Shown here one piece after another: positions 6,905 through 35,739 of a stretch of DNA of 64,000 nucleotides (positions are counted from its first letter, which is position 1; each line of letters opens with the position of its first letter). Under the pieces are notes generated by a model, which worked only from the letters and a program-made list of their open reading frames with translations, was not told where the DNA came from and did not search any database. Source of the DNA: Saprospiraceae bacterium (GTDB lineage Bacteria > Bacteroidota > Bacteroidia > Chitinophagales > Saprospiraceae); the NCBI GenBank assembly GCA_022841345.1, contig JALHRR010000003.1:62001-126000 (forward strand), in the 5' to 3' direction. The position numbers and the translations under genes are program-made.

Positions 6905-7996
6905 ATGGTTCAGACATTTTATAAATTAAAGGTACAATCAATCATTCGCGAGACAGGCGACACTGTCTCCATCATACTCGGTATACCTGAAGATCTTAAG
7001 GAATCCTTCGCATACAAGCAGGGGCAATACATTACCATCAAACACGAATTTGGCGGAGATGAAATTCGAAGGTCCTACTCCATGTCAAGCAGTCCACTGG
7101 AAGATATGCTGAAATTTACGGTGAAAAAAGTTTCAGGAGGAACGATGTCCGTTTATCTCAATGAGCAGCTGAAAGAGGGAGATGTCCTGGAAGTTTCACA
7201 TCCGGACGGTCATTTTTTCACGCCTTTGCATCCTGAGCAACAAAAGTTTTATTACATGTTTGGGGCAGGTAGCGGCATCACACCGCTCATGTCACTGATC
7301 AAAACAACACTGGAAGTGGAGCCACTTTCTACAGTTCACCTTTTTTATGGAAACAGAGAAGAAACTGCGGTGATCTTCAAGGATGAACTGGACTCCATGG
7401 CCAAAAAGTATGAAGGTCAGTTCATCATGGAATACATTTACTCAGGCCAGGGAAAAAGCAGTGGTGGAATGAGTGGATGGTTCAGAAAAACCAGCGATGC
7501 ACTTGCAGGTCGTATAGATGGAAAAATTGCCGGAAAATTGCTTTCCCGCTATCCTGCCGGCAAGAAGAAATCGGAGTTTTTCCTTTGCGGTCCGGGTGAA
7601 ATGATAGAAAAAGTGGAGGCAGAGCTTAGAAAGCAGGGCGTTCAAAAAGCACAAATGCACAAAGAGTATTTCGTATCTGCAACGCCAGTAGGGACGGATG
7701 GCCCGGCTCCTTTTGACGGGGCAGTGGAATTGACAGTGACACTCAATGGCCATACCTCACAAGTTAAAATCCCCGCAGAAAAGACTGTTTTGGAAGGATT
7801 GATTTTGCAAAAACTGGATCCCCCTTATTCCTGCAGTGCAGGCGCTTGTTCGACCTGCATGGCCAAACTGGTCAGTGGACAAGTTAAAATGGATACCTGC
7901 CTGGCGCTGGATGATGACGAAGTGGCCAATGGATACATTCTGACATGCCAATCCAGAGCATTGACGCATCAGATTGAGATTAATTACGACGCTTAG
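6905..7996 (+). CDS. Ferredoxin-NADP reductase/2Fe-2S oxidoreductase (PaaE-like)
   Basis: A 363-residue electron-transfer flavoprotein with three modules: an FAD domain with RRSYSMSS near residues 57-64, an NAD(P)-binding domain with GAGSGITPL and FFLCGPGEMI, and a C-terminal plant-type 2Fe-2S domain. The cluster cysteines are C310, C315, C318 and C348 (CX4CX2CX29C). The order matches class IA oxygenase reductases such as PaaE of phenylacetyl-CoA epoxidase. No paaABCD genes are nearby, so the partner may be another oxygenase or desaturase. All key residues are present. It is monocistronic and followed by a repeat-rich spacer. Confidence 0.88.
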   Translation: MVQTFYKLKVQSIIRETGDTVSIILGIPEDLKESFAYKQGQYITIKHEFGGDEIRRSYSMSSSPLEDMLKFTVKKVSGGTMSVYLNEQLKEGDVLEVSHPDGHFFTPLHPEQQKFYYMFGAGSGITPLMSLIKTTLEVEPLSTVHLFYGNREETAVIFKDELDSMAKKYEGQFIMEYIYSGQGKSSGGMSGWFRKTSDALAGRIDGKIAGKLLSRYPAGKKKSEFFLCGPGEMIEKVEAELRKQGVQKAQMHKEYFVSATPVGTDGPAPFDGAVELTVTLNGHTSQVKIPAEKTVLEGLILQKLDPPYSCSAGACSTCMAKLVSGQVKMDTCLALDDDEVANGYILTCQSRALTHQIEINYDA

Positions 7997-8069
7997 TTTT
8001 AGCTACGAGCTGTGAGAGAACAGCCTGAGGAGCGCGCCTAGGGCGCGTAGAAGAAAGCTCCTGGCCCGG

Positions 8070-8145
8070 TGTGTGAGCTCGGGCGAAGCCCGGCTCGTGT
8101 GAGCTTGCGGCCTACGGCCGAGCGGGATGTGGTTCACTTCGTTCA
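8070..8145 (+). repeat. Left arm of imperfect inverted repeat
   Basis: The reverse complement of this segment aligns with 8327-8410. The shared words appear in the same order: ACCACATCCCGC, GCAAGCTCACACGAG and AGCTCACACAC. The stretches between the words differ and are mostly small hairpins here. Confidence 0.55.
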
Positions 8146-8326
8146 CGGGATGTGTAACAGCCAATGATCGCCGATGGCGATCAAAACAACAAAGCATATC
8201 GTAAGTTTTTTTCTTACACATACTTATCACTTTACCCACACGGGCTGTGTGTGTTCAACTCATCATTCATAACACATAACTCTCTTCTGGCTGTTTCCAC
8301 ACTCTCACACACCACTCACAATTCAT

Positions 8327-8410
8327 TCCGTGAGCTTTGCGAACCACATCCCGCGCTGCAGAATGCAGCAAGCTCACACGAGCAAGCAAAGCGCAGCTCA
8401 CACACGATCT
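8327..8410 (-). repeat. Right arm of imperfect inverted repeat
   Basis: This arm matches the reverse complement of 8070-8145. Conserved blocks ACCACATCCCGC, GCAAGCTCACACGAG and AGCTCACACAC are separated by diverged inserts of similar size (for example GCTGCAGAATGCAG in place of the CGGCC-TAC-GGCCG hairpin). Confidence 0.55.
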
Positions 8411-8500
8411 CTATTCGAATCTATCTGGCGTAGCCGACCTCCACCCGGCTGTTCAACTGTAACGAACTATCCAGTAGCGCAGCGGCACACACGATCTCTA
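8399..8500. repeat. Pair of 15-bp direct repeats CACACACGATCTCTA
   Basis: Exact copies at 8399-8413 and 8486-8500, 87 bases apart start to start. Between them lie the small hairpins around GGCGTAGCC and AGCGCAGCG. Confidence 0.6.
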
Positions 8501-8683
8501 CAATTAAACCCGCAGGCGCAGCCTATCTTAACTCAGTCCCTAAATACGTTGCTTCATTTCAAATCCAAAAACTTAACAGAAAACTTTAGCAGAGCAAGGG
8601 ACTTATAACTAGTTTTGCAGACAGTTCCATTTCTCGCATTAGAGAAAAGATCTAAAAAATTGACATTAGAAAAATTACCCTGC

Positions 8684-10090
8684 ATGCCGAAAGCAATATT
8701 AGAGACAGAACAGAAAGCACTGGAGATCAATCTGGATCCTCATATTTATGGGACTTTTGCAGAGATCGGAGCAGGTCAGGAAGTCGCCAGGTACTTCTTT
8801 CAGGCTGGAGGAAGTTCCGGTACTATTGCTAAGACCATGTCAGCCTATGACAAGACCTATTCAGATGCCATTTACGGCAGAGAACCAAGTGGAAGATATG
8901 TCTCAGAGGCCAGGATATACAAAATGTTGGATCATGAATATGAATTGATGGAGGAACGGATTCGGGAAGAAAGACCGGAGACGAGTTTTTTCTCATTTGC
9001 CAATACGGTTTCAGCCATAAATTACCAACGTACGATCAAAGGAAATGGCTGGATGGGACTTCGGTTTCAGACAGATCCAAATGTCGCTCCCAACAATATG
9101 GTTTTGCATGCCCGGATGCTGGACAATGACAACAGACTGCAACAAGATGCGATAGGAATTCTGGGTGTCAATCTGATTTATGCCTGTTATTATTTCAGAG
9201 ATGACATGCAGCGCTTTCTTTCATCTCTGATGGACAATCTGAAGGACCGCATCTTCATAGATATGATTAATGTGGAAGGCCCTGAATTTGAGCATGTCAA
9301 CCATAGATTGCTCTGTTTGGACATGGTTAGGCTGGGGTTGACAGATGTTGTGATGTTCAATCCGGAGGGCAAATGCGTGCAGGTTTCAGAGTTTTTATAT
9401 AAGAAATCCGTTTTAATCGTTCGAAGCAGATTCAGACCGGTGACTGTAATCAACTGGGAGATGTTTAATTCCGGCTTGAAACAATTCAGAGAAGACCTGC
9501 ATGATGATGATGCTTATTTGCTGACAGAAATCACATTGGGAGATCTGCGGTCCAAAGGCTCCATCGATAAAAAAGATTTTCTGGACAGAGTAACTACTTT
9601 GGCGGCCTTGAATCAGGTGGTGGTGATTTCCAATTGTGAACAACATCAGAAACTCATCACTTATTTGCTGGATTACAAAATTCAGAATGTCGGATTTGTC
9701 ATGAGTATCTGGCACTTAAAAGATATAATTCAGGAAAAATTTGATCAAAATAAAGATGGAGCGCTGATAGCTTCATTTGGAGATTTATTTTCCAAAAAAG
9801 TAAGGATATATGCCTATCCTGCCTATGAAGAAGAGAGTGGTAAATTGCTTAAAGCCGCCATTCTACCCGTTCCTGACGGGATGCAGTACCTTTATTTGCA
9901 TCTTTTGCAAAATAAACATATCGTAGATATAAAAGACTTCACGCCTGAAATTCTGCAAGTATATTCCAAAGAAGTGCTCAGATCTCTGCGTAATAACGAA
10001 CCTGGATGGGAAGAAATGGTACCACCGGGTATTGCCGATTTGATCAAAAAGGAGAAGCTTTTTGGGATAGAAGGAGGGGAGAGTAATTGA
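8684..10090 (+). CDS. Conserved protein of unknown function
   Basis: A 468-residue soluble protein starting MPKAILETEQKALEINL. Its N-terminal block (about residues 18-110, with HIYGTFAEIGAGQEVARYFF, GGSSGTIAKTMSAYD and SDAIYGREPSGRYVS) is strongly patterned. From memory it belongs to a widespread family seen in Bacteroidota and cyanobacteria, whose database names (TonB-dependent receptor, nicotinate-nucleotide adenylyltransferase) do not fit the sequence. It has no signal peptide, no barrel and no HxGH nucleotidyltransferase motif. An upstream TTG at 8615 would add 23 residues; the ATG at 8684 is preferred because conservation appears to begin there. The FkbM methyltransferase gene lies 40 bases downstream. 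The biochemical role is unknown. Confidence 0.75.
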   Translation: MPKAILETEQKALEINLDPHIYGTFAEIGAGQEVARYFFQAGGSSGTIAKTMSAYDKTYSDAIYGREPSGRYVSEARIYKMLDHEYELMEERIREERPETSFFSFANTVSAINYQRTIKGNGWMGLRFQTDPNVAPNNMVLHARMLDNDNRLQQDAIGILGVNLIYACYYFRDDMQRFLSSLMDNLKDRIFIDMINVEGPEFEHVNHRLLCLDMVRLGLTDVVMFNPEGKCVQVSEFLYKKSVLIVRSRFRPVTVINWEMFNSGLKQFREDLHDDDAYLLTEITLGDLRSKGSIDKKDFLDRVTTLAALNQVVVISNCEQHQKLITYLLDYKIQNVGFVMSIWHLKDIIQEKFDQNKDGALIASFGDLFSKKVRIYAYPAYEEESGKLLKAAILPVPDGMQYLYLHLLQNKHIVDIKDFTPEILQVYSKEVLRSLRNNEPGWEEMVPPGIADLIKKEKLFGIEGGESN

Positions 10091-34488: not shown

Positions 34489-35739
34489 TTAATCAATCAC
34501 TTTTATTTCCAGTCCCAATGACATCATCTCATCCCAAAACCTGGGAAATGACTTCTCCACTACCATCGGATCCTCTATGATAACAGGTGCAATTATAGAT
34601 AGGAGAGAAAAAGCAAGCGCCATTCGATGATCATGATAAGTTGAAAACACCGGAGTTACGGAAAGATTAATTTTTTCTTCTCCGTCATATTTCAGCAAAA
34701 TATCTCCTTCATCATATTCTGCTCTCAGGTGAATACCGGCTTTTGCCAGTTCACTGATAAGCGCTTGTACACGATCCGTCTCTTTGACCTTGAGTGTGCT
34801 CAGTCCATTGAAGGAAAAAGGAATTTTCAGAGCGGACATCACAACGGCAAGTGTCTGTGCAATATCAGGACATAGCTCAAAATCTGCTTCGAATGAATCC
34901 GGAAGAGCATGTTGCAATTTACTGATTTGAACACCGTCGCTCCATTCCTCAGTTTGAACACCCAAATCTTTCATAAATGAAGCCACAACAGCATCCCCCT
35001 GCAGACTTTGCAGACGCAATCCGGGAATTTTGATAGAAGCCTTATCTGCTAAGGCAGCTAACCCATAAATATAGGAAGCGGAGGACCAGTCTGCCTCTAC
35101 TTCGATTTCCATCTCAAAAGCTTGTCCCGGCGGTATATAGATCATTTTGTCTTTCCAGAAAGCTTCTATTCCGATCTGATGCAATAGCTTCATGGTCATT
35201 TCAATGTAGGAGGCGGAAACAACTTTTTCTTTGAGATGCAGGGTAAGTCCTTCAGGAAGTGCAGTTCCTATCATCATCAGGGCAGAGATAAACTGACTGC
35301 TGATATCGGCGGATATATTCAACTCCGGGTGTCCCGGAGGCGGCGTAAATCCTTTCACCGCAATCGGTAAAAACCCTTCTTTTTCAAGATACTCCAGGTC
35401 AGCCCCCAATTGTCTCAGTGCTTCTGCCAATGGAGCTACCGGCCTTTGCCTCAACCGTTCTGAACCGGTAAGGATACAAGGTTTTCCCTTGATTGCTTTG
35501 TAGGCCATGAGAAATCTGATAGTTGTGCCTCCATGACCGGCATCCAAAACCTCCTCATCAGATGTCAACAGTTTTTTTAATCTGACTGTGTCTTCAGCAT
35601 TTGACAGGGATTTTATCTTCAAAGCCCCCCCCGAAAGGGCCGATAGTATCAAAAGCCTGTTGCTGATGCTTTTGGAACGGGAAACTTCTATAACACCATT
35701 TAGTTCTTTGTGTGGCCAGGAAAGCTGGTACTTTACCAT
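34489..35739 (-). CDS. aroA: 3-phosphoshikimate 1-carboxyvinyltransferase (EPSP synthase)
   Basis: A 416-residue shikimate-pathway enzyme that joins phosphoenolpyruvate to shikimate 3-phosphate in the cytoplasm. It has SRSKSISNRLLIL (substrate lysine), the loop AGHGGTTIRFLMA in place of the usual GNAGTAxR, RQRPVAPLAEALRQLGA, the catalytic region CPDIAQTLAV, KETDRVQAL and YHDHRMALAFSL. The His for Asn in the first loop is a divergence seen here; function is still expected. It overlaps the OsmC gene by 7 bases and forms an operon with osmC-like and phoH. Confidence 0.93.
   Translation of the reverse strand: MVKYQLSWPHKELNGVIEVSRSKSISNRLLILSALSGGALKIKSLSNAEDTVRLKKLLTSDEEVLDAGHGGTTIRFLMAYKAIKGKPCILTGSERLRQRPVAPLAEALRQLGADLEYLEKEGFLPIAVKGFTPPPGHPELNISADISSQFISALMMIGTALPEGLTLHLKEKVVSASYIEMTMKLLHQIGIEAFWKDKMIYIPPGQAFEMEIEVEADWSSASYIYGLAALADKASIKIPGLRLQSLQGDAVVASFMKDLGVQTEEWSDGVQISKLQHALPDSFEADFELCPDIAQTLAVVMSALKIPFSFNGLSTLKVKETDRVQALISELAKAGIHLRAEYDEGDILLKYDGEEKINLSVTPVFSTYHDHRMALAFSLLSIIAPVIIEDPMVVEKSFPRFWDEMMSLGLEIKVID

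Follow-up and report, generated by a model that had tools for sequence, protein, structure and literature searches.

A dispersed multi-hairpin repeat in a Saprospiraceae genome looks like an unusually large relative of REP repeats

What fills a hairpin-crowded spacer between two genes of a Saprospiraceae bacterium, and do its hairpins act as RNA or as DNA? The spacer occupies positions 7997-8683 of the window, by which we mean the whole 64,000-nucleotide stretch that was analysed, taken from a draft genome of 5.87 Mb in 310 contigs. Its 5' neighbour is a ferredoxin-NAD reductase-like gene (6905-7996; FAD_binding_6, NAD_binding_1 and Fer2 domains). The 3' neighbour, a conserved gene at 8687-10087, has no Pfam match, and the nearest relatives of its protein are mostly Saprospiraceae, Phaeodactylibacter and Lewinella records at 54-60% identity (80 loci kept). 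The first-pass annotation had described the spacer as packed with tri-loop mini-hairpins inside a long, diverged inverted repeat, with hairpin inserts that seemed to be exchangeable modules.

The crowding of hairpins exceeds the shuffle level. Five tri-loop hairpins with perfect stems of at least 5 bp lie in 7997-8683, against a mean of 0.66 in 500 dinucleotide shuffles, only one of which reached that number; with stems of at least 4 bp there are seven, against 2.44 (4/500). Since loops of 5 and 7 nt are over-represented as well (4 vs 0.65 and 4 vs 0.66 at stems of at least 5 bp; 1/500 and 3/500), the excess is not limited to three-base loops. Loop sizes 4, 6 and 8 showed no enrichment over shuffles in the same interval, and over the whole window tri-loops are not in excess over other loop sizes. 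An isolated GC-rich tri-loop hairpin, CTCCGGG TGT CCCGGAG, stands at 35323-35339. The inverted repeat is borne out too, as 60 nt of 80% complementarity between 8093-8152 and 8324-8383. Folding both strands, a check that had been proposed with the annotation, placed 8000-8460 far beyond 100 shuffles, with z-scores of -8.9 for RNA and of -9.15 and -9.13 for the two DNA strands.

A BLAST search of the bacterium's own genome with 7997-8683 returned at least 79 matching pieces at E<=1e-3 (40 of 103 candidates scored). They define a repeat, here called M1, that is present at no fewer than 35 loci: both arms were seen at 20 of them, the left arm alone at 3, of which one touches a contig end, and the right arm alone at 12. 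This count leaves aside two further weak covariance-model matches as well as L043-L047, which match in spacer words only. With other copies in the genome and hairpins above the shuffle level, the original observation is real and was understated. The copy in the window is a non-coding repeat of about 418 bp at 8027-8444 with some seven hairpins; the tri-loop hairpins of the whole spacer, followed by the parts of this copy, are listed here.

8001-8011, 8033-8047, 8080-8092, 8108-8120, 8165-8183, 8355-8369 and 8514-8524: tri-loop hairpins of the spacer
8027-8184, plus strand: left module of M1 (H1, H2, H3 and H5 on a conserved backbone), aligned with 16 further genomic copies
8029-8032, plus strand: tetranucleotide foot of H1, GGAG in this copy
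8033-8047, plus strand: hairpin H1, CGCGCC TAG GGCGCG
8075-8096, plus strand: hairpin H2, GAGC T CGGGC GAA GCCCG GCTC; a second repeat, M2, in its place in two other copies (by eye)
8108-8120, plus strand: hairpin H3, CGGCC TAC GGCCG; missing in L012, M2 instead in three copies
8156-8162, plus strand: AACAGCC, able to pair with GGCTGTT at 8289-8295
8165-8183, plus strand: hairpin H5, TGATCGCC GAT GGCGATCA
8188-8288, no strand: variable spacer between both modules, differing from copy to copy
8316-8444, minus strand: right module of M1, the inverted homologue of the left module, aligned with 22 further copies
8355-8369, plus strand: right-arm counterpart of H3, GCTGCA GAA TGCAGC; elsewhere other hairpins or M2
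8380-8399, plus strand: right-arm counterpart of H2, GAGC...GCTC; five alternative hairpin types among copies
8427-8438, minus strand: weak tail hairpin GGC GTA GCC (3-bp stem), ending in CGAC
8399-8500, plus strand: tail repeat, with CACACACGATCTCTA occupying both 8399-8413 and 8486-8500

M1 spacers and tails (8188-8290 in the window, and in other copies) include stretches of low complexity, for example AACTCATAACTC or GAAGCTCGAAGCTCG, often after GGCTGTT. Two small ORFs, 8164-8433 and 8330-8608, for which a coding function was considered, cross hairpins that differ among copies.

The left module could be aligned in 17 of 23 copies; five interrupted by M2 were left out, together with L022, which has no H5. 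In these 17 copies, H1, H2, H3 and H5 sit on a nearly invariant backbone. A covariance model built from the left modules, the window copy among them, scores 189 bits on 8027-8184 of the plus strand. The same model matches 8316-8444 on the minus strand with 57.6 bits and matches the right modules of other copies as well. M1 is therefore an inverted pair of related hairpin chains with a variable spacer between them. The left-arm hairpins have three-base loops, and the loops of the right arm are more varied. The H5 pattern was found at 15 genomic places, every one of them inside a fetched M1 copy; among copies, one central pair of its stem is either C-G or T-A and the loop is variable. A special role that had been suggested for the GCGAAGC mini-hairpin is rejected, because the loop reads GAA in only 3 of the 17 aligned copies, and this hairpin is incidental.

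Both arms end in a short foot. GTAG lies directly 5' of H1 in 13 of the 22 left modules examined; the foot of H1 is GTAA in L016, and one further, 23rd left module also reads GTAA there. On the other side, a GGC/AGC-NNN-GCC hairpin is followed by CTAC, that is, GTAG on the minus strand, in 16 of 23 right modules (32 are known). Hence, GTAG feet point outward at both sides in most copies. The feet of the window copy differ, being GGAG on the left and GTCG on the right (CGAC on the plus strand).

Comparison of the genomic copies upheld the suggestion that the hairpins are exchangeable modules. Told apart by pattern, there are two types of H2, three of the right-arm H3 and five of the right-arm H2. 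All four combinations of H2 type and H5 stem type are present (3, 6, 5 and 2 copies), and the right-arm H3 and H2 types form nine combinations among 16 copies and are somewhat associated (type II goes with d in 4 of 6, for instance). H3 is cleanly missing in L012. M2, a repeat of about 90-150 bp with an ATTTA-loop hairpin of varying stem, was seen by eye to replace H3 in L021, L041 and the second copy of L033, H2 in L039 and the first copy of L033, and the right-arm H3 in L019, L022 and L042; it also lies in the spacer of L022, L023 and L039. One and the same junction can hold a small hairpin, nothing, or M2, and the hairpin sites are exchangeable. M2 has 23 genomic matches, 13 of them away from M1. 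In several M2 copies GTAG precedes a hairpin, and several of the stand-alone copies (L140-L151) lie near another repeat containing AAAAATGCGTTTTC.

A bolder reading of this exchange is that M1 belongs to a combinatorial family of mobile DNA whose unit of exchange is the single hairpin. The long inverted repeat would offer fixed junctions to alternative cassettes, M2 included; Y1 transposases, or template switching during replication, would copy these in as single-stranded hairpins, and the family would evolve by hairpin swapping rather than by point mutation. We regard this extension as tentative, at about one chance in four.

Paired changes are seen in the stems of the left arm. Across 28 pairs and 17 copies, 95.1% of the cells are paired, 7 of the 28 pairs have changed on both sides (2.2 in shuffles), and double-change cells number 18 against 4.4, a count that none of 500 shuffles reached. 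The signal is lost when the partner column is slid. Further pair types in the left module were not above the shuffle level (11 vs 12.4). In the left arm, paired changes thus preserve the stems, and the loops vary. The right arm shows less regularity: perfect 6-bp stems with loops of 2-3 nt, in five stem sequences, occupy its H3 site in 7 of 23 rows, and the other 16 rows have longer-looped or irregular hairpins instead. Its RNAalifold consensus is weak (-9.2 kcal/mol, an unfavourable covariation term, 1 of 18 pairs doubly changed), because the alignment mixes hairpin types.

The strong folding and the paired stem changes could also suit a multi-copy structured non-coding RNA gene or an RNA-level processing element with hairpins acting in transcripts, as REPs of other species are thought to do (PMC3733652). 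Several results speak against such a role. Wobble cells in the left stems are few and show no strand preference, with 3 G-T and 5 A-C among 470 cells, a small sample, so that an RNA role gets no support from them. The long-range stem P3 departs from Watson-Crick pairing in 8 of 266 cells (19 copies); two of these eight are G-T and none is compensated, unlike changes in the local left-arm hairpins, although P3 varies little. Altogether 20 long-range cells have changed, 8 in P3 and 12 in P4, not counting a constant T-G position of P4, a false match in L010, or L022, which M2 has altered. Over all pairs, 18 of 44 changed local cells in the left arm are compensated; the figure is 17 of 28 once two H2 pairs are set aside that fall in an internal loop of one H2 type. 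The difference from P3 gives Fisher p values of 0.04 and 0.003, respectively, which are indicative only because the copies are related and their cells not independent. A simple scan found no sigma-70-like promoter or terminator, Bacteroidota promoters being different from that type, and no Rfam family matched at its gathering score, the best hit being at chance level (E 0.49). The idea that one global RNA fold is what is conserved was likewise rejected, as the changes in the long-range stems, which vary little, are uncompensated. The earlier idea of a role in RNA structure gets no support from wobble, long-range compensation or Rfam, and we consider an RNA-level explanation of M1 improbable.

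The copies are dispersed between genes. By rough ORF calls, M1 copies lie between longer frames, and no frame of at least 150 aa contains one; frames of up to 148 aa overlap some copies, and a 243-aa frame overlaps one M1 end in L021. M1 was found by BLAST in none of 39 other relatives (one from its genus, 23 from its family and 15 from its order), nor by the covariance model, under strict filters with 19 candidates scored per genome, in 149 other genomes of the family. Such absence from relatives is as expected of species-specific REPs. The exact M1 core pattern had no match in the genome-contig and viral-contig collections, and no similar DNA turned up among plasmids and phages, collections from which the bacterium's own genome was possibly left out. 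An empty M1 site was not found by synteny: only 1 of the 80 related loci passed a filter for both neighbour genes, and these were not adjacent in this order.

MITEs are non-coding, non-autonomous, dispersed and palindromic elements. Dispersed non-coding copies with inverted homologous arms, some of them one-armed, would fit a MITE-like passenger of another transposon type, whose DDE enzyme or tyrosine recombinase would use the inverted modules as its recognition ends. Yet no terminal inverted repeat with a target duplication was recognised when the ends were compared by eye, which also sets M1 apart from MITEs in general, and DDE enzymes are not known to require covarying small hairpins. This origin appears unlikely, to much the same degree as an RNA-level one. 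Least probable is a purely mutational account. On this view, template switching at quasi-palindromes would copy one half of a stem over the other, and unrelated recombination would have scattered the copies. Joint rewriting of stem halves would indeed give 18 double-change cells against 3 wobble intermediates, but whole-hairpin exchange between copies would give identical double changes, and the feet at both ends, the replacement of hairpins by M2 at the same junctions and the dispersal would all go unexplained.

Does the genome encode an enzyme that could move such a repeat? Three genes (C1, C32 and C44) exceed the NCBIfam cut-off for REP-associated tyrosine transposases (RAYTs). Each lies between repeats with perfect stems of 6-8 bp and 3-nt loops, and these repeats recur across the genome, as 21 pieces, 52 pieces and 15 exact hairpins, with 6, 7 and 2 of them lying at the gene in question. 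The C44 family is an imperfect palindrome, and pieces of the C1-linked repeat adjoin M1 in L016 and L041. M1 and the RAYT-linked repeats have a tri-loop building style in common. At stems of at least 6 bp, loop size 3 is the commonest both in 19 M1 copies (41; sizes 4-10: 7, 22, 5, 23, 4, 18 and 4) and at the three RAYT loci (25; sizes 4-10: 4, 17, 4, 13, 2, 0 and 2), and the remainder of the window shows no preference for it (17; sizes 4-10: 24, 26, 34, 25, 32, 22 and 29). At four Y1 loci, however, the best covariance-model score for M1 was only 6.0 bits (E 0.37), and a fifth, weaker RAYT-like gene had no significant M1 match around it. Copies flanking a cognate RAYT, as in a REPtron, were therefore seen at none of these five Y1 or Y1-like loci.

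Other features of these loci were recorded. In L057 (contig 32), the RAYT gene lies between tandem arrays at 951-1200 and 1855-2574 with a unit of roughly 110-150 bp, which carry CCGTAGCT-GRA-AGCTACGG hairpins with 52 related pieces in the genome. The weaker RAYT-like gene, in L178 (contig 8), is a distant open frame (NHVH, YILNNP) with no significant M1 or M2 match around it. In L056 (contig 4), a 148-aa IS200-like gene lies between direct repeats of about 361 bp (1109-1469 and 1962-2321, 97% alike), the first of which overlaps its 3' end. Its motif is Y...Q..HH, which is given for subclass 1.2 (PMC6006769).

We favour the interpretation that M1 is a large composite element of the REP/BIME type, whose hairpins are kept at the DNA level and which a Y1 transposase spreads in trans, and give it a probability of roughly 0.58. 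The enzyme, strand and reaction we infer would be these. Single-stranded M1, for example on the lagging-strand template during synthesis, would fold into its local hairpins. Hairpin and foot would then be recognised in trans by a RAYT-type Y1 (HUH) tyrosine transposase, which would cut at the foot and join copies elsewhere. Hairpin modules would be swapped as units between M1 copies and with M2 and the RAYT-linked repeats, through the same strand transfer or through template switching, and so give rise to a mosaic.

REPINs reportedly consist of two inverted REP-like units spread as one mobile unit (Bertels and Rainey 2011). M1 is REPIN-like in plan, with two homologous hairpin modules in inverted order and GTAG-type feet outward. 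Unlike REPINs, it is far longer and has multi-hairpin arms, and a link to a cognate RAYT was sought and not found.

Repeats of the GTAG superfamily are described as extragenic, often species-specific, and marked by a GTAG foot at a short hairpin, with most stems of 6-9 bp, loops of 2-3 nt in many families, and alternative complementary stem letters; the HH type is an inverted dimer whose GTAG feet face outward, and some dimers have structured spacers (PMC3733652). M1 shares the extragenic position in many copies (35 loci), the short-loop hairpins, the alternative complementary stem letters and the outward-GTAG inverted arrangement. Its left arm, and in part its right, has short-looped stems of about 5-9 bp that covary, and the GTAG or degenerate foot 5' of the hairpin is present at the level of the family, not in the GGAG and GTCG of the window copy. 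In the same account, REP units measure 20-40 bp and lie mostly 20-100 bp apart in dimers, the GTAG foot exceeds 90% in most families, and G-T pairs are frequent in the stems (Di Nocera et al. 2013, PMC3733652). By comparison, M1 has several hairpins per arm on a conserved backbone and about 420 bp in total, its hairpins are replaced by a second repeat, its G-T pairs are few and its feet are less constant. The size, the number of hairpins, the 3-bp tail stem, the raised odd loop sizes 5, 7 and 9 and the irregular right arm all count against this assignment. Membership of the REPs is unproven, as M1 lacks a linked RAYT gene and its feet in the window read GGAG and GTCG.

In Bacteroidetes, tnpA-REP genes of subclass 2.6 are flanked by atypical secondary structures with copies elsewhere in the genome, which are weaker and lack GT[AG]G (Quentin et al. 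2018, PMC6006769). This Bacteroidota genome resembles such systems in its three RAYT genes with flanking tri-loop repeats, and the genes might, at a guess from motifs compared by eye, belong to subclass 2.6. M1 differs from the repeats described there by GTAG in the majority of copies and by the lack of gene linkage.

In the account cited above, REP-type repeats are described mostly from Proteobacteria and as single small hairpins or pairs (PMC3733652); a literature search found nothing that joins repetitive extragenic palindromes with Saprospir- names. M1 seems to be related to these repeats, at an unusual size and complexity. Several such families in one Bacteroidota genome, up to an element of seven hairpins, form a natural series for how hairpin repeats grow, mix and find a transposase. 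The empty, filled and M2-filled junctions within a single genome make hairpin exchange directly testable.
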